A DNA stretch of 64,000 nt from Chitinophagales bacterium. Lineage in GTDB: Bacteria > Bacteroidota > Bacteroidia > Chitinophagales > Chitinophagaceae. The stretch is taken from assembly GCA_015654695.1 (NCBI GenBank), contig JAATGJ010000048.1, positions 1-64,000 of the forward strand. The letters run 5' to 3'. The translations under genes were made by a program, and so were the position numbers. The stretch's first letter is position 1. Every line of letters starts with the position of its first letter. Shown here one piece after another: positions 9,510 through 63,635 of this stretch. The notes below the pieces were generated by a model. That model saw only the letters and a program-made list of their open reading frames with translations. It was not told where the DNA came from and ran no database searches.

Positions 9510-12170
9510 ATGGAATTGTCCAAAAATTTTGAACATAGCGTCGCAGAACGGAAATGGTATCAGCATTGGCTGGATAAACAATATTTCAACAGCAAGCCTG
9601 ATGACAGGGAGCCTTACACCATCGTGATACCTCCGCCAAATGTCACCGGTGTATTACACATGGGTCATTGCCTTAATAATACTATCCAGGATATATTGGT
9701 TCGCCGGGCAAGAATGATGGGCAAAAACGCCTGCTGGGTTCCGGGGACTGACCATGCTTCTATCGCTACCGAAGCAAAAGTGGTACAAATGCTCCGCGAA
9801 AGGGGAATTCAAAAAGCATCTCTCAGCCGTGATGAGTTTCTGCAATATGCATGGGAATGGAAAGAAAAATATGGCGGTATCATCCTGCAGCAATTAAAGA
9901 AATTAGGTTGCAGCCTTGACTGGAACCGCACCAGTTTTACGATGGACCCTGATTATTACCAGTCTGTCATTAATGTCTTTATTGACCTCTATAAAAAAGG
10001 ATATATCTACCGGGGCAAGCGAATGATCAACTGGGATGTAAAAGCAAAGACTGCACTGAGTGATGAAGAAGTGATAAGAAAAGAAACGCAGCAGAAGTTG
10101 TATCATCTGCGCTACAAATTAGACATACCCGGAGATGAGTATATTATCATTGCAACTGTAAGACCTGAGACGATCATGGGGGATACCGCTATTTGCGTTC
10201 ACCCGAATGACGAACGGTACAAACATCTTCATGGCAAATTCGCTTTTGTTCCATTGATCAATCGCCGTATCCCCATTATTACAGACGACTACGTAACTAT
10301 GGATTTTGGAACGGGCGCTTTGAAAGTAACACCGGCCCATGATATGAATGACTATCAGTTGGGACAAAAACACAACCTGGAAGTGGTTGATATTTTCAAT
10401 GAAGATGGTACGTTGAATGAAGAAGCACAAATATTTGTGGGTGAAGATCGCTTTGAAGCGAGAAAAAAGATCACCCGGGAGCTGGAAGCAAAAGGCCATT
10501 TGATAAAAACCGAAGATTATACCAGTGAAGTGGGCTACAGTGAAAGAACCGATGCAGTAGTGGAACCACGTTTAAGCTTGCAATGGTGGGTGGATATGAA
10601 AAAGATATCCGGACCTGCATTGAACGCAGTAATAGATGACGATATAAAATTCTATCCCGGCAAATTTAAAAATCTCTATCGCCACTGGATGGAAAATATC
10701 AAGGACTGGTGTATCAGCCGCCAGTTGTGGTGGGGACATAGGATACCCGCCTGGTATGCCCCGGATGGCGGTTATGTTGTTGCTGCGACAAAGGAAGAAG
10801 CCTATCAAAAATTTACCAGTGAATGGTCAATGGTCAATAGTCAATCTAAAGAGTCTTCTCATCATTCATCATTCACTATTGACGAAATAACACAGGATGA
10901 GGACTGTCTTGATACATGGTTCTCCAGTTGGCTATGGCCGTTTGAAGTATTTAAAGGCTATAGTGACCCAGGGAACAAGGATGCCGGATACTACTACCCA
11001 ACCAATACGTTGGTAACTGCGCCGGAGATCATTTTTTTCTGGGTAGCGAGGATGATCATGGCTGGTTATGAATTCAAAGGTGAAAAACCATTCAGTGAAG
11101 TTTACTTTACAGGCATCGTAAGAGACAAGACAGGCAGAAAAATGAGTAAACAATTAGGCAACTCACCTGACCTTTTAGAAATGATTGATAAAGACGGGGC
11201 TGATGCAGTTCGTTTTGGCATTATGATCTCCTCTCCCGCTGGCAATGACCTGATGTGGGACCAGGCGGGAAATGAGCAGGGGAAATTTTTTATAAATAAA
11301 ATGTGGAATGCATTAAAGCTGGTGAAGATGTGGGAAGGAAGGCAGGCAACCAGTAATGAGCAATCGGCAACTGGCAACTTTGCTGTGGAATGGTTTGATA
11401 GCCGTCTGAATGAAGTAAGGGCAGAGATCGAGGTTTTGTACAAAGATTTCAGGTTAAGTGAAATCCTGAAAACTATCTATTCGCTGGTATGGGATGATTT
11501 CTGCAGTTGGTACCTGGAATGGGTGAAGCCAGGTTTTGAGCAACCTATTGATAAAACTGTTTATGAAAAGACAGTTGGCTACTTTGAACAATTATTACAG
11601 ATACTGCACCCTTTCATGCCTTTTATTACAGAAGAAATTTATCACCAGTTAAAAGTACAAAAAGATGATATTACAGTAAAGCAATATCCTGCTTATACTG
11701 CTGCGAACAAAGTAATATTACAAAGCGGTTTATTGCTGAAAGAAACGATCACCGCTATCCGCGATGCAAGAAACAAGAACCTTTTAAAACCAAAGGAAAC
11801 AATAAAACTGCATATACTATCAGCAGCCCCGGAAAATTATACAGCGATTGAATCCATCCTGGCCAAACAGGTAAATGCTGAACAGACAGGCTATACCAAT
11901 GAGTCAGTGTCCAATACCATTTCTATTGTAGTGCAAAAAGATAAATTCTTTATCGAAACCACCACCGAACTCGATACCGCTTCGCAAAAAGAACAACTGG
12001 TCAAAGACCTCGAATACCAGAAAGGCTTTCTTATTTCTGTAGAAAAGAAACTAAGCAACGACCGTTTTGTACAAAACGCAAAACCCGAAATAGTAGATGC
12101 GGAAAAAAAGAAAAAAGCAGATGCGGAAGCGAAGATCAAAGCGATAGAAGAAAGTCTTGCTGGTTTATAA
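9510..12170 (+). CDS. valS: Valine--tRNA ligase
   Basis: ValS charges tRNA-Val and edits mis-charged Thr. The 886-residue protein has the HIGH-type motif HMGH (residues 50-53) in PPNVTGVLHMGH, the CP1 editing domain in the middle, WCISRQLWWGHRIPAWY, the block LDTWFSSWLWPF, and KMSKQ (about 542-546) in place of the commoner KMSKS. It ends with the usual C-terminal coiled coil (KKKKADAEAKIKAIEESL). Two stretches are unusual: about residues 437-458 just before LDTWFSS, and about 610-625, which are encoded by DNA built like intergenic repeats. Two tRNA-Val genes lie 4-5 kb upstream. A start slightly upstream at 9445 in another frame has no homology. Confidence 0.93.
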   Translation: MELSKNFEHSVAERKWYQHWLDKQYFNSKPDDREPYTIVIPPPNVTGVLHMGHCLNNTIQDILVRRARMMGKNACWVPGTDHASIATEAKVVQMLRERGIQKASLSRDEFLQYAWEWKEKYGGIILQQLKKLGCSLDWNRTSFTMDPDYYQSVINVFIDLYKKGYIYRGKRMINWDVKAKTALSDEEVIRKETQQKLYHLRYKLDIPGDEYIIIATVRPETIMGDTAICVHPNDERYKHLHGKFAFVPLINRRIPIITDDYVTMDFGTGALKVTPAHDMNDYQLGQKHNLEVVDIFNEDGTLNEEAQIFVGEDRFEARKKITRELEAKGHLIKTEDYTSEVGYSERTDAVVEPRLSLQWWVDMKKISGPALNAVIDDDIKFYPGKFKNLYRHWMENIKDWCISRQLWWGHRIPAWYAPDGGYVVAATKEEAYQKFTSEWSMVNSQSKESSHHSSFTIDEITQDEDCLDTWFSSWLWPFEVFKGYSDPGNKDAGYYYPTNTLVTAPEIIFFWVARMIMAGYEFKGEKPFSEVYFTGIVRDKTGRKMSKQLGNSPDLLEMIDKDGADAVRFGIMISSPAGNDLMWDQAGNEQGKFFINKMWNALKLVKMWEGRQATSNEQSATGNFAVEWFDSRLNEVRAEIEVLYKDFRLSEILKTIYSLVWDDFCSWYLEWVKPGFEQPIDKTVYEKTVGYFEQLLQILHPFMPFITEEIYHQLKVQKDDITVKQYPAYTAANKVILQSGLLLKETITAIRDARNKNLLKPKETIKLHILSAAPENYTAIESILAKQVNAEQTGYTNESVSNTISIVVQKDKFFIETTTELDTASQKEQLVKDLEYQKGFLISVEKKLSNDRFVQNAKPEIVDAEKKKKADAEAKIKAIEESLAGL
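10822..10885. repeat. Repeat-like, imperfect inverted sequence in frame inside valS
   Basis: Within valS the left arm GGTCAATGGTCAATAGTCAA is followed, after about 18 bases, by CATTCATCATTCACTATTGAC, which is roughly its reverse complement. Both arms are made of a short tandem unit (GGTCAAT / CATCATT). The stretch keeps the reading frame and encodes a Ser/His/Asn-rich peptide that sits just before the conserved DEDCLDTWFSS block. Confidence 0.65.
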
Positions 12171-26217: not shown

Positions 26218-26312
26218 GGCGATAGGTTAAGGTTTATAGCTTGATATTTAAAGTTATCGTGCTATACTGAGATTTCCCGCAACCTTTAAAACTATTTTCG
26301 AATTTGAAAACC

Positions 26313-26879
26313 TTAAACCTTAAACTTTTCCAATTCTCTTACTACCCGGCTCACCGGCAAACCCATCACGTTATAAAAATCACCGGTCACCGATTTGATG
26401 CCCACCACTCCTATCCATTCCTGGATGGCATAAGCGCCGGCCTTGTCATAAGGTTTATATTTATCAACATAAAATTCTATTTGCGCTATTGACAGATCAT
26501 GAAATTCTACTTCTGTAGTATCCGCGAAAGCGATTTCTTTAGCCCCTTTTCTTATTACTACGCCTGTTATCACTCTATGCTTTTCTCCTGACAATGCAAG
26601 AAGGATGCTTATAGCTTCTTCACGGTGTACAGGTTTGCCGATAATAGCTTCCCCCAGCACCACGATGGTATCCGCGGCCAATATTATTTCATGCTGGTTG
26701 TTTTGTTGCTCTATAGCCAATGCTTTATTTCGTGCAATATAAACAGCTATTTCGTCCGGTTCCAACCCTGGGGGAAATCTTTCATCCGTTTCTTTTACCA
26801 CTATTTCAAAGGGCACTTCAGCCCACTCGAGTAGTTGTTTGCGCCGCGGGGACCGGGAAGCTAAAATTATTTTGGTCAT
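26313..26879 (-). CDS. Maf-like nucleotide pyrophosphatase
   Basis: Maf proteins hydrolyse non-canonical or pyrimidine nucleoside triphosphates (dTTP, UTP, CTP, modified bases) and block septum formation when overproduced. The 188-residue protein starts MTKIILASRSPRRKQLL (the S-R-S-P-R-R motif) and carries DERFPP, AADTIV and KPYDKAGAYAIQEW, all hallmark segments. The subtype is likely YhdE-like (dTTP/UTP). Its ATG overlaps the stop of the upstream ubiA-like gene by four bases (ATGA). Confidence 0.9.
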   Translation of the reverse strand: MTKIILASRSPRRKQLLEWAEVPFEIVVKETDERFPPGLEPDEIAVYIARNKALAIEQQNNQHEIILAADTIVVLGEAIIGKPVHREEAISILLALSGEKHRVITGVVIRKGAKEIAFADTTEVEFHDLSIAQIEFYVDKYKPYDKAGAYAIQEWIGVVGIKSVTGDFYNVMGLPVSRVVRELEKFKV

Positions 26880-50440: not shown

Positions 50441-53400
50441 ATGAAAACCACCTACCCCATTTCCCTTGTTGCATCTATCCTTCTTATACTTTGCTGCAAC
50501 TATACACAGGCCCAGTCCTTCGGGACAATTGCTTCTGCTGTTTCAATAAGCGATTGTAACCAGAATAGTTTTTTTAATACGTCCGGTAATGCCGCTGACC
50601 TGGTAGGACCCGCAGGCAATGTGTTTGACAACACAAATTTTGGCGTGTTCACTCAAAACTCAGGAACGCTGGTATTGCATGGCGCACAAGTGAAGACCTT
50701 TAAAAATCCTGCTTCTTCCAATGTATGCAATGCGAGGATGTTTTATCGTGTTTATCTTCAATCTGCTGTACCCGGTTCTTTTATATCCCTCAATCTTCCG
50801 TTTTTGGAAAATTGCAGCGCAGGCACGTTTCCATCAGGAGGTACCTGTGCAGCAGGTGATCAAAAATGGCAGCAAATTTCCTCTTCTGTTAACCTGACTA
50901 CACATGCACCGGGAAATTATGTACTTGAAGTATATTATGAAGCATCGGGATCTCAAACAACTACTTCGTTATGCAACGACATTGTGACGTTAAACAATAG
51001 TGGTAATAATTATAAAGCCTTTTTCTCTATACAATCACCCAATCTTTCAAGTACTAATCCTTCTTCCTGTTTTGGCAATGAAGGCTCCATTACGATCGGT
51101 GGCCTGGTGGCGGGCGCTTCTTACCAGTTAAGTTATACTGATGATGGCACGCCTGTTGGTCCTGCTACTTTTATTGCTAACGGCGCCGGTCAGATTATTA
51201 TCGGTGGATTGAATAAAGGCTTTTATGCCAATTTCGCATTACTGATCAATGGTTGTACCACGAACCTTTTCACAGGTATTATTTTATCAGACCCGATATT
51301 CGTACCGACATTTCCTCCTATTCCTCCTTTTTGTGCAGGAACAACGGCCCCAGCATTGCCACCTGTTGCGAACAATGGCATGACGGGAACATGGAGCCCT
51401 GCAATAGTGGATAACCAGGCTTCAGGGAGTTATACATTCACACCTGATGGCAATCAGTGCGGTTTCCCGGTCACTATTACAATAACTGTAATACCCAGGA
51501 CAACACCCACTTTTAGTTTTGGTACAAGTTTAGTGATCTGCGGAAGCGGAACTGTGCCTGCATTACCTAATACATCTACAAACGGAATCACCGGAACATG
51601 GAGCCCTTCTGTAGTGGATAATCAAAATTCCGGTACCTATACATTTACACCCACAGCAGGTTTATGTGCAAACCCTACAACATTTACTGTAACAGTTAAT
51701 CCCAACATTACTCCAACGTTCAGCTTTGGAACAAGTTTAATGATTTGTGCAGGACGAACCGTACCCACATTACTTACCGGATCAACAAATGGAATAACGG
51801 GAACCTGGAGCCCTACTGTAGTGGACAACCAAAACTCAGGTGTCTATACATTTACACCAACAGCCGGGCAATGTGCAACAACAACAACATTCACGGTAAC
51901 AGTTAATCCGAATGTTCCACCAACTTTCAGCTTTGGAACAAGCTCAACAATCTGTGCAGGAGAAGCTGTACCCGCATTACCTGCTATATCCTTGAATGGT
52001 TTAGTCGGTAGCTGGAGCCCATCTGCAGTGGACAACCAGAATTCCGGTGTCTATACATTCACACCTGATGGATGGCAATGCTCAATGCCTATTACTTTCA
52101 CGGTTACAGTTAGTCCGAATATTCCACCGACATTCAGTTTCGGAACGGGTTTAACGATATGCGCGGGAGCAACTGTACCAACACTGCCCAATACATCAAC
52201 AAACGGAATAACCGGAACATGGAGTCCTTCAGTGGTAGATAATCAAAATTCCGGTACTTATACATTTACACCTACTGCAGGACTGTGTGCAACAACAGCA
52301 ACTTTTACTGTAACAGTTAATCCGAACATTACTCCAACGTTTAGCTTTGGAACAAGTTTAATGATTTGTGCAGGACGAAACGTACCCACATTACTCACGG
52401 GATCAACAAATGGAATAACAGGGACATGGAGCCCTTCAACAGTTGACAACCAGAATTCCGGTACATATACATTTACACCAACAGCCGGGCAATGTGCAAC
52501 AACAACGACATTTACAGTTACTGTTAATCCGAATGTACCACCCACTTTCAGTTTTGGAACGGGTTTAACGATCTGTGCAGGAGATGCTGTACCCGTATTG
52601 CCCGCTATATCCACGAATGGTTTATCGGGTAGCTGGAGTCCATCTGTAGTGAATGATCAAAACTCAGGTGTCTATACATTCACGCCTGATGGCTGGCAAT
52701 GTTCCATGCCATTTACCTTCACGGTTACAGTTAATCCGAATATTCCACCAACATTCAGTTTCGGAACGGGTTTAACGATCTGTGCGGGAGATGCTGTACC
52801 AACACTACCCAATACATCAACAAACGGAATAACCGGGACATGGAATCCTTCTGTAGTGGATAACCAGAATTCCGGCACTTATACATTTACTCCAACAGCA
52901 GGCCTGTGTGCAACAACAGCAATCTTTACTGTAACAGTTAATCCTAACATTCCCCCGGCATTCAGCTTTGGAACAAGCCTGGCGATCTGTGCTGGTGGAA
53001 CTGTGCCAGCTTTACCAACAACATCAACAAATGGAATAACCGGTACATGGAGCCCGTCAATAGTTGATAACCAGAATTCGGGCACTTACACATTCACACC
53101 AACAGCAGGGCTATGTGCGACAACAGCAACATTTACTGTAACAGTTGATCCTAATATTATTCCAACGTTCAGTTTTGGAACGGGTCTGACGATCTGTGCC
53201 GGAGAAACTGTACCAGGTTTACCCACCACATCAACAAATGGCATAACCGGTACATGGAGCCCTTCAGTAGTGGACAACCAGAATTCGGGCACTTATACCT
53301 TCACGCCAACAGCAGGATTATGTGCAACAACAGCAACATTTGCCGTAACAGTTAATCCCAACATTCCACCCATCTTTAGTTTTGGAACAAGCCTGACGAT

Positions 53401-54739
53401 CTGTGCAGGTGGAATTGTACCGCCATTACCAACAACATCTACTAATGGAATAACGGGAACATGGAGTCCTTTGCTGGTGGACGATCAGGTTTCCGGCACT
53501 TATACATTCACGCCAACAGCGGGACTGTGTGCGACAACAGCAACCTTTACTGTAACAGTTAATCCGAACGTTACACCAGCTTTCAGCTTTGGACCAACTC
53601 TGACGATCTGTGCAGGAGGAACTGTACCCGCTTTATCAACAACATCAACAAACGGAATAACCGGAACATGGAGCCCTTCTGTAGTGGATAATCAGAATTC
53701 GGGTGTTTATACATTCACCCCTGTTGCCGGTCAGTGTGTAACACCTGCAACAGTAACATTTACCGTTACAGTAACACCTAACATTATACCCACCTTCAGC
53801 ATAGGAACAAGTCTAACGATCTGTGCGGGAGGAACTGTACCAGCATTACCCACTACATCAGGCAATGGCATAACCGGTACATGGAACCCGTCTGTAGTGA
53901 ATGACCAGGCAAGCGGAATATATATATTCACCGCTGCGCCCGGGCAATGCGTAACCACATTTACATTCACTGTTACGGTAAACCCGATCATTACACCGGC
54001 CTTTAGTTTTGGTACTTTTCAATCTGTTTGTATAGGCTCAACAGCTCCTGTCTTAGCTGCTGCATCAGCAAATGGAATAAATGGTACATGGAGCCCGTCT
54101 GTAATTGACAACATGGCAAATGGGGTGTACACATTTACACCTTCCGCCGGTCAATGTGCAAACAATACCACATTTACACTTGAAGTAAATGCGGTACCAT
54201 CCGTAACTGTAAGAACAGATACTTCCGTATATGATGGCGCTGTGTTACCCGAATATAATTTTATTAACAGCCCAGGCAGTATAGTGCATTGGCTCAATTC
54301 CACTCCTTCCATCGGCTTAACTGAATCAAGTACCGGCAGTGTTCCTTCTTTCACGGCTGTCAACAAAAGTAATGTTCCCGTCACTGCAACCATTACGGCG
54401 ACACCTGTTACCAACGGTTGTTCTGGCTTAGCGCAGCGTTATCTCATTACAGTTTTACCGTTGAACAAAGATGTATTTGTGCCGAATGTTTTTTCGCCTA
54501 ACCGCGATGGAAAGAATGATATATTATTTGTTTACGGTAATTATATTGATAAAGTAGATATGCGCATTTTCAATCAATGGGGTCAGCAAATTGCCGCGAT
54601 CAGCAACAAGACCCAGGGCTGGGATGGAACGCATAAAGGAAACCCGCAGCCGGTGGGTGTGTATATGTATGTAGTAAAAGCTGTACTGACTGACGGTAGA
54701 ACTATTAACCTTAAAGGCTCGATCACGCTTATCCGATAA
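50441..54739 (+). CDS. Large T9SS type B cargo protein with 14 tandem Cys-containing repeats
   Basis: A 1,432-residue secreted protein. The signal peptide (ISLVASILLILCCNYTQAQ) precedes an N-terminal domain of about 250 residues with several Cys. From 51,305 to about 54,200 lie 14 tandem repeats of about 69 residues, each with PTFSFGT..ICAG..VPALP, STNGITGTWSPSVVDNQNSG, TFTPTAG.C and TFTVTVNPNI; two Cys per repeat probably form a disulfide. The C-terminus VFVPNVFSPNRDGKNDI...GWDGTHKGNPQPVGVYMY is the gliding-motility-associated C-terminal (type B) sorting domain. The protein is a surface adhesin or filament type. The porP/sprF-like and ompA-like genes follow at once. Confidence 0.9.
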   Translation: MKTTYPISLVASILLILCCNYTQAQSFGTIASAVSISDCNQNSFFNTSGNAADLVGPAGNVFDNTNFGVFTQNSGTLVLHGAQVKTFKNPASSNVCNARMFYRVYLQSAVPGSFISLNLPFLENCSAGTFPSGGTCAAGDQKWQQISSSVNLTTHAPGNYVLEVYYEASGSQTTTSLCNDIVTLNNSGNNYKAFFSIQSPNLSSTNPSSCFGNEGSITIGGLVAGASYQLSYTDDGTPVGPATFIANGAGQIIIGGLNKGFYANFALLINGCTTNLFTGIILSDPIFVPTFPPIPPFCAGTTAPALPPVANNGMTGTWSPAIVDNQASGSYTFTPDGNQCGFPVTITITVIPRTTPTFSFGTSLVICGSGTVPALPNTSTNGITGTWSPSVVDNQNSGTYTFTPTAGLCANPTTFTVTVNPNITPTFSFGTSLMICAGRTVPTLLTGSTNGITGTWSPTVVDNQNSGVYTFTPTAGQCATTTTFTVTVNPNVPPTFSFGTSSTICAGEAVPALPAISLNGLVGSWSPSAVDNQNSGVYTFTPDGWQCSMPITFTVTVSPNIPPTFSFGTGLTICAGATVPTLPNTSTNGITGTWSPSVVDNQNSGTYTFTPTAGLCATTATFTVTVNPNITPTFSFGTSLMICAGRNVPTLLTGSTNGITGTWSPSTVDNQNSGTYTFTPTAGQCATTTTFTVTVNPNVPPTFSFGTGLTICAGDAVPVLPAISTNGLSGSWSPSVVNDQNSGVYTFTPDGWQCSMPFTFTVTVNPNIPPTFSFGTGLTICAGDAVPTLPNTSTNGITGTWNPSVVDNQNSGTYTFTPTAGLCATTAIFTVTVNPNIPPAFSFGTSLAICAGGTVPALPTTSTNGITGTWSPSIVDNQNSGTYTFTPTAGLCATTATFTVTVDPNIIPTFSFGTGLTICAGETVPGLPTTSTNGITGTWSPSVVDNQNSGTYTFTPTAGLCATTATFAVTVNPNIPPIFSFGTSLTICAGGIVPPLPTTSTNGITGTWSPLLVDDQVSGTYTFTPTAGLCATTATFTVTVNPNVTPAFSFGPTLTICAGGTVPALSTTSTNGITGTWSPSVVDNQNSGVYTFTPVAGQCVTPATVTFTVTVTPNIIPTFSIGTSLTICAGGTVPALPTTSGNGITGTWNPSVVNDQASGIYIFTAAPGQCVTTFTFTVTVNPIITPAFSFGTFQSVCIGSTAPVLAAASANGINGTWSPSVIDNMANGVYTFTPSAGQCANNTTFTLEVNAVPSVTVRTDTSVYDGAVLPEYNFINSPGSIVHWLNSTPSIGLTESSTGSVPSFTAVNKSNVPVTATITATPVTNGCSGLAQRYLITVLPLNKDVFVPNVFSPNRDGKNDILFVYGNYIDKVDMRIFNQWGQQIAAISNKTQGWDGTHKGNPQPVGVYMYVVKAVLTDGRTINLKGSITLIR
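51305..54200 (+). repeat. Array of 14 tandem 207-bp coding repeats
   Basis: Repeat starts are at about 51305, 51506, 51713, 51920, 52127, 52334, 52541, 52748, 52955, 53162, 53369, 53576, 53789 and 53996. Repeats 2-4 and 5-7 form matching triplets (NTSTNG, LLTGSTNG and AIS.NGL types), with repeat 8 starting the cycle again, so a 621-bp unit was duplicated recently. Repeat 12 is six bases longer. Confidence 0.85.
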
Positions 54740-58471: not shown

Positions 58472-58572
58472 AATGAAATGCTTTTTTACCGGCAGCTATG
58501 AGTTCAAAGTAATATTTCAATTGCAGCGATAATCAAAAAAATTATTCATTCTTCATTATTCAATCTTTTATT

Positions 58573-63599: not shown

Positions 63600-63635
63600 T
63601 GAGAGACTATTCACTATTCACTATTCACCACTCAC
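63600..63635. repeat. Tandem CTATTCA-type repeat overlapping the thiolase 3' end
   Basis: Near-perfect copies of CTATTCA follow each other (ACTATTCACTATTCACTATTC) just past the thiolase stop, and resemble CATTCATCATTCACTATTG inside valS. The last codons of the thiolase lie at the edge of this stretch. Confidence 0.5.

Follow-up and report, generated by a model that had tools for sequence, protein, structure and literature searches.

The valyl-tRNA synthetase gene (valS) of this Chitinophagales bacterium carries, in frame, a short array of degenerate 7-nt units with the consensus RGTSAAT, and this stretch, which we call site A, is probably dispersed repeat DNA of the STRR/heptamer type, tolerated in a disordered loop of the enzyme (ValRS), replaced over time, and without function in the protein. 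The repeat is present in many copies, has a period of 7, is built of units that are specific to individual genomes, lies at gene borders and recurs in the same loop of ValRS, which is itself variable among relatives. What is new is that fixed protein loops are occupied recurrently and in a lineage-specific way; in the titles and abstract openings of the open-access literature we recognised no account of such heptamer arrays for Chitinophagaceae. Within the window, by which we mean the whole 64,000-nt stretch of DNA analysed, the features discussed are:

9510 to 12170, plus strand: valS, valyl-tRNA synthetase, an ORF of 886 aa with the Pfam domains tRNA-synt_1 (PF00133), Anticodon_1 (PF08264) and Val_tRNA-synt_C (PF10458)
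10818 to 10845, plus strand: site A, first arm, four RGTSAAT heptamers (AGTGAAT GGTCAAT GGTCAAT AGTCAAT)
10846 to 10863, plus strand: site A, spacer of 18 nt between the arms
10864 to 10884, minus strand: site A, second, inverted arm (ATTCATC ATTCACT ATTGACG on the plus strand)
11359 to 11380, plus strand: site B, a weaker period-7 array of TGGCAAC/CGGCAAC at ValRS residues ~617-624, found at the relaxed threshold (78%) only
63604 to 63635, minus strand: second RGTSAAT array of the window, at the 3' end of a minus-strand gene

In the ORF list, the reading frame of valS is not interrupted across 9510-12170, and site A encodes in frame the peptide SEWSMVNSQSKESSHHSSFTID, directly upstream of QDEDCLDTWFSS (QDEDCLDTW). 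At lag 7, 18 of 21 positions of the first arm are equal, and no other lag between 3 and 12 exceeds 7 of 24. The two arms are complementary at 75% over 20 nt, 87% over 15 nt and 92% over 13 nt, which confirms the imperfectly pairing inverted repeat that the initial annotation had placed in the valS frame. Its statement that the encoded peptide is unlike the family also holds, as the alignment with relatives gives a variable loop and a peptide that is not conserved; the loop has 30 residues in the window, compared with a median of 18 and a range of 11-98 in 116 valS ORFs. By sequence, the best solved relative of the window ValRS is the Thermus enzyme (1gax), whose site-A loop is ~13 residues shorter in the sequence alignment; besides the window, 31 of the 80 named loci were included in the alignment to the structure (A1). 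The AlphaFold2 model (mean pLDDT 85.1) has two segments below a pLDDT of 50, one of them at residues 445-451, and its lowest block is 441-450 (pLDDT 49), compared with 65 for the site-B block 611-620; by this model, the site-A loop is disordered. The array would be of no use to ValRS and tolerated since the loop accepts many open sequences, over the whole span of lengths in our sample. At the same site, L028 (from G033) carries a zinc-knuckle-like CxxxxC...CxxC pattern, a sequence that suggests that the variable ValRS loop is a decayed zinc knuckle.

The 116 valS ORFs surveyed, 115 of them distinct (L021 duplicates L125), comprise 36 from a genome set, window included, and 80 from named contigs. 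The former come from 39 genomes searched, with G023, G029 and G037 excluded for weak, paralogue-like matches, and the latter are the best 80 of 595 confirmed stretches, a sample skewed to close relatives. At 85% self-match, we found 42 period-7 arrays in these ORFs, compared with 0-2 in each of ten codon-shuffled sets of the same size. Site A (aa 430-462) holds an array in 16/116 ORFs and site B (606-628) in 10/116, both sites being occupied in two ORFs, so that 24 ORFs carry an array at one or the other; seven arrays lie outside both. Other periods hardly occur there: at 85%, periods 5, 6, 9, 10, 11 and 13 give no array at either site and period 8 one ORF, while at 78% period 7 is found 20 times at site A and 11 times at site B, where period 5 gives 1 and 4, respectively, and period 6 one at each site. 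By hand count, about 12 different units occur among the 16 site-A ORFs, including ACCAGAA (G002 and G005), AAATCTC (the Mucilaginibacter loci L130 and L134), RGTSAAT (L077) and, in G019, CGTGAAA with an inverted arm, in a loop of 98 residues. Because some site-A ORFs are close relatives, array events are fewer than ORFs; protein identity between array-bearing ORFs reaches 92% for L008/L009, 95% for L108/L126 and 91% for L130/L134. In L011, from G006, a distinct nested palindrome, CCCGATAGCCATCGGGA ... TGCCGATGGCTATCGGGA, is found within the site-A loop.

The initial annotation named two outcomes that would refute it, a peptide conserved across related genera and a lack of other genomic copies; neither was observed, as site A does have copies elsewhere in the genome and its peptide is variable. 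BLAST with 111 bases of the region as query returned five further places, and two adjacent RGTSAAT units (RGTSAATRGTSAATR) match 90 times in the bacterium's own genome, whereas the reversed pattern matches 0 times. By hand count, the matches group into 41 places, all of them covered by the analysis, to which BLAST adds one, on C185. Of 43 distinct clusters (at least two exact units), 35 are intergenic and eight lie within genes, as placed by codon-score gene calls, which bears out the description of site A as intergenic-type repeat DNA inside a coding frame. The arrays are strongly oriented: of those lying no more than 20 nt from a gene 3' end, 23 are sense and 2 antisense, and at gene 5' ends six are antisense and none sense, such that RGTSAAT is read on leaving the gene, in either direction, in 29/31 cases (binomial p about 5e-7, some clusters being counted at both neighbours). 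Read by eye, the stop codon lies within the array at 12/25 gene ends. We considered the stop codon as the seed of the arrays and dropped the idea, as selection for a short C-terminal tail accounts equally for this overlap. Pure AGTCAAT runs of ~16-17 units are found at two contig ends (G000:C61:1-113 and C178:37427-37551), and because such runs end contigs, long arrays probably break the assembly, a draft in 187 contigs, which would make the array counts lower bounds. The draft state of the genome is also what speaks for chance low-complexity sequence or an assembly error as the origin of site A, but this account is hardly credible, given the open frame, the arrays in the same loop in independent assemblies, the near-empty shuffled controls and the 90 matches set against none in the reversed control.

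At the gene end with the second RGTSAAT array of the window, the corresponding positions of G002, G005 and G003 are without an RGTSAAT array, and that of G006 carries a palindrome of a different heptamer, GGATGCT; no counterpart of the gene was matched in G001 or G004. The window holds two other period-7 arrays, at 26307-26329 and 58541-58562, with the units AAACCTT and ATTATTC, respectively, and, at 51504-53908, a 207 bp tandem repeat of 11.6 copies with 74% matches, perhaps encoding a repeat protein.

Heptamer units differ between lineages. Pairs of RGTSAAT, counted in 12 genomes, number 90 in the bacterium's own (G000), 109 in G004, 39 in G005, 29 in the L077 genome, 11 in G006, 9 in the L115 genome, 8 in G003, 7 each in G002 and G019, 5 in G001, 1 in the L130 genome and 0 in the L101 genome, with at most one match to the reversed control in each. 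Pairs of AGCTAAY occur in G003 only, with 17 matches that include both of its valS sites, and 0 in the 11 other genomes, and AGTCGAY is found in G001 (15, including valS site B), G006 (10) and the L115 and L130 genomes (4 each), with 0 in the others. For AAATCTC, searched in 14 genomes, there are 6 and 7 matches in two Mucilaginibacter genomes, 1 in each of two others and 0 in the remainder, and it is a weaker case, since the reversed control gives 1 in G002 and 3 in G006. Despite its 109 genome-wide matches, G004 has no RGTSAAT array at valS site A, where its loop has 19 residues. Within 8 kb, the L101 locus, from the genome without RGTSAAT pairs, has seven period-7 arrays, of which five are built of AAGCG/CAGCG-type units.

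The distribution of units also bears on whether the arrays arise in place, by polymerase slippage that amplifies a short in-gene seed and with no copying between loci. Such a seed could be ATTGAC, in which the second arm of site A terminates, and which corresponds to the Ile-Asp codons of TIDD-like residues present in some array-free relatives. The long pure AGTCAAT runs show that slippage happens, and the ACCAGAA pairs of G002 and G005 are confined to valS within these genomes (elsewhere, one in G019 and two in the L115 genome), which runs counter to copying and fits birth in place better. On the other hand, independent seeds would hardly yield one unit at dozens of unlinked loci and in none of the relatives, nor period 7 alone: a multi-locus scan returned 19 and 40 arrays of period 7 (1 and 2 after shuffling) from its sets of 29 and 80 loci, respectively, as compared with 5 and 6 for period 8 and at most 4 for periods 9-15. 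We therefore regard purely local amplification as unlikely, although it is the strongest competitor of the dispersed-repeat reading.

The tandem heptamer is a stronger feature than the palindrome. Inverted pairs were found in 12 of 42 sources (the window, 40 loci of its own genome and L077), and many RGTSAAT copies are single arrays. All 12 pairs converge, with lengths and spacers that vary, and the arms of one element match each other no better than they match those of other elements (0.859 vs 0.855; 836 of 2000 permutations as good), so that the palindrome is a frequent arrangement and not a maintained structure. In folding, the hairpin of site A is only modestly better than shuffles, with z -2.41 as RNA (2/200 shuffles as good) and z -1.48 as DNA (18/200). 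A functional hairpin was accordingly rejected, as permuted arms match equally well and DNA folding is weak. More broadly, selection for the insert, either as a ValRS peptide or as an mRNA hairpin that regulates translation, is very improbable: the RNA fold is somewhat in its favour, but the loop peptide differs widely among relatives, as does its length, and the pairing of the arms is not kept.

These observations likewise weigh against the likeness to Rickettsia palindromic elements put forward in the initial annotation, which is not supported, as the unit is a 7-nt tandem array, pairs are present in a minority of sources, spacers differ and the arms are not co-maintained. A mobile palindromic element of this kind, or of the REP/RAYT kind, inserted in valS would explain that copies are both intergenic and in-frame within genes, as is also the case for the Rickettsia elements, and in-gene REPs are described for tRNA synthetases and RNA helicases, as well as for recB, where two Xanthomonas species have them at roughly the same position (PMC3733652). 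Yet the RGTSAAT copies have no conserved full-length palindromic consensus, and neither a fixed length nor a fixed spacer or end tag, and many of them are single arrays, leaving this explanation improbable. By eye, no constant GTAG or CGTC end tag is found across the 12 pairs; CGTC opens the second arm in two, those of the window and L077.

Two generalisations about the units were also tried and discarded. A universal purine-first rule for inverted pairs is a trend only, with 11 against 4 in other families after merging and with L037 counted twice. A hidden consensus common to all units looked real against 60 sets of letter-shuffled units (166 against a mean of 150, sd 4.2), but in a test with 51 units 7 of 100 random genomic 7-mer sets of equal GC score as high; of five published heptamers scored on the consensus model, only GGGAATC is high, and it is itself among the source units of the model.

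As 7 is not divisible by 3, a uniform heptamer array reads as the same cyclic peptide whichever frame of a strand is used (VN-S-E/Q-W-S-M forward and FTIHYSP reverse for this family), and consequently stays open provided that its variable bases avoid TAG and TGA and that it adds a net number of nucleotides divisible by three; the valS array carries the open choices at two variable bases (TGG not TAG, TCA not TGA). The valS gene is not alone in having an interior same-strand copy: others encode IVNGEWSMSN in TilS, IVNSQWSMVN in an Lhr-type helicase and KVNSEWRAVNG in BshC. In the Lhr-type helicase, 18 loci give nine period-7 rows and seven distinct arrays (G001 appears twice, as L242 and L248), all of which occupy one loop with varied units: AGTCAAT in G000 and G005, GGTCAGT and ACTCACC in G003, AAGCTGC in G013, and, in G001, CGGCAGT together with an ACTCACC/G array of 130 nt. 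In TilS, 21 loci give seven rows, spread over two loops. The BshC copy (L166) was set aside as an additional coding insertion, being possibly a chance match, since relatives show no length change; 24 BshC loci hold no period-7 array.

Four further in-frame copies in the bacterium's own genome lie at protein N-termini. As opposite-strand copies, they form the hydrophobic N-terminal stretch of two M14 peptidases (LFTIHYSL in both) and of an HHH protein (VFTIHYSLFICSQ), and in a PD40 protein the copy is placed just after a signal-peptide-like N-terminus. In L167, L173 and L183 of the same genome, the likely signal peptides have a hydrophobic core that is encoded by reverse-strand ATTCACY arrays, as in MKKFLLLFSLFTIHYSLIAQ. 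The N-termini of the two M14 peptidases and the HHH protein, which look like signal peptides, have a Gln shortly downstream, fitting the Q-rule of Bacteroidetes signal peptides (PMC5837995); signal peptides and start codons were assigned by eye. Intergenic repeat DNA would thus be a source of loop residues and, apparently, of signal-peptide cores in working proteins. The ValRS, Lhr-type helicase and TilS loops act as natural traps: they keep a record of the heptamers active in each lineage, making gain, loss and replacement countable on gene trees.

For site A itself, a ValRS tree of 20 of the 116 rows, computed with both loops removed, places G004 nearest to the window, with weak support (89/71). 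By eye, the window (L007), L011 and L077 have a similar site-A core, L011 and L077 being the closest pair, and the three do not form one clade on this tree, which forces at least two changes; either an old array was replaced in the sisters or the place was hit again. Neither a precise empty site nor a target-site duplication was found among the compared relatives, whose valS DNA is only ~73-77% identical to that of the window, and for this reason copying is what we infer. In the dispersed-repeat reading, arrays would reach new sites when short repeat DNA is copied between loci, by recombination, single-strand annealing or some unknown enzyme, and would then lengthen or shorten by slippage; older arrays would be overwritten by the family currently active in the lineage, and selection would remove those that break frame or fold. 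Counterpoints are the BshC match with its unchanged gene length and the long site A of L013, L025 and L043, which is without period 7. We know of no accepted mechanism for the spread of heptamer repeats. Speculatively, and with rather low probability, an undescribed process working in 7-nt steps could write the current heptamer of a genome outward from gene boundaries and into permissive loops, replacing older arrays; if true, it would be common to Bacteroidota, xanthomonads and cyanobacteria and would account for the dominance of period 7, the genome-specific unit and the outward reading from genes.

Among known systems, Rickettsia palindromic elements and in-gene REPs resemble the RGTSAAT repeat in being repeat DNA within housekeeping genes, but are defined palindromes, whereas RGTSAAT forms an open-ended heptamer array. 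The ends of GTAG REPs often provide a TAG stop (PMC3733652), and in-gene REPs of tRNA synthetases and recB are a precedent for coding capture. The TAACTGA repeats of Beggiatoaceae, cyanobacteria and five Bacteroidetes are likewise lineage-restricted heptamer arrays, some of them in ORFs, but differ from RGTSAAT in their unit, in being nearly all direct in the main genome (169 sets, with one indirect repeat) and in lying mostly just upstream of start codons as proposed regulator sites (PMC4679880).

The STRR repeats of heterocystous cyanobacteria, too, are short tandem heptamers dispersed in the genome, a likeness by description. GGGAATC and GGGGA(C/T)T heptamer repeats are described for Xanthomonas and Nostoc (PMC4692102); RGTSAAT agrees with Xanthomonas GGGAATC to within an order of magnitude in its sites per genome, and the two have in common the placing at gene ends and the inverted pairs. 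RGTSAAT differs from these heptamers in having no quadruplex G-runs; in addition, species within a genus carry different units, and fixed loops of housekeeping proteins are occupied recurrently. A unit consensus across phyla, which would speak for a common origin, is not found, and the papers do not claim one. The closest known kind is therefore the dispersed heptamer repeat of Xanthomonas (GGGAATC), Nostoc and Beggiatoaceae (TAACTGA), with which the RGTSAAT family shares tandem degenerate 7-nt units, tens to hundreds of sites (90 matches at 41 places in its own genome and 109 matches in G004), a mostly intergenic location (35/43) on the sense strand just past stop codons (23 vs 2), and inverted pairs that converge (12/12).
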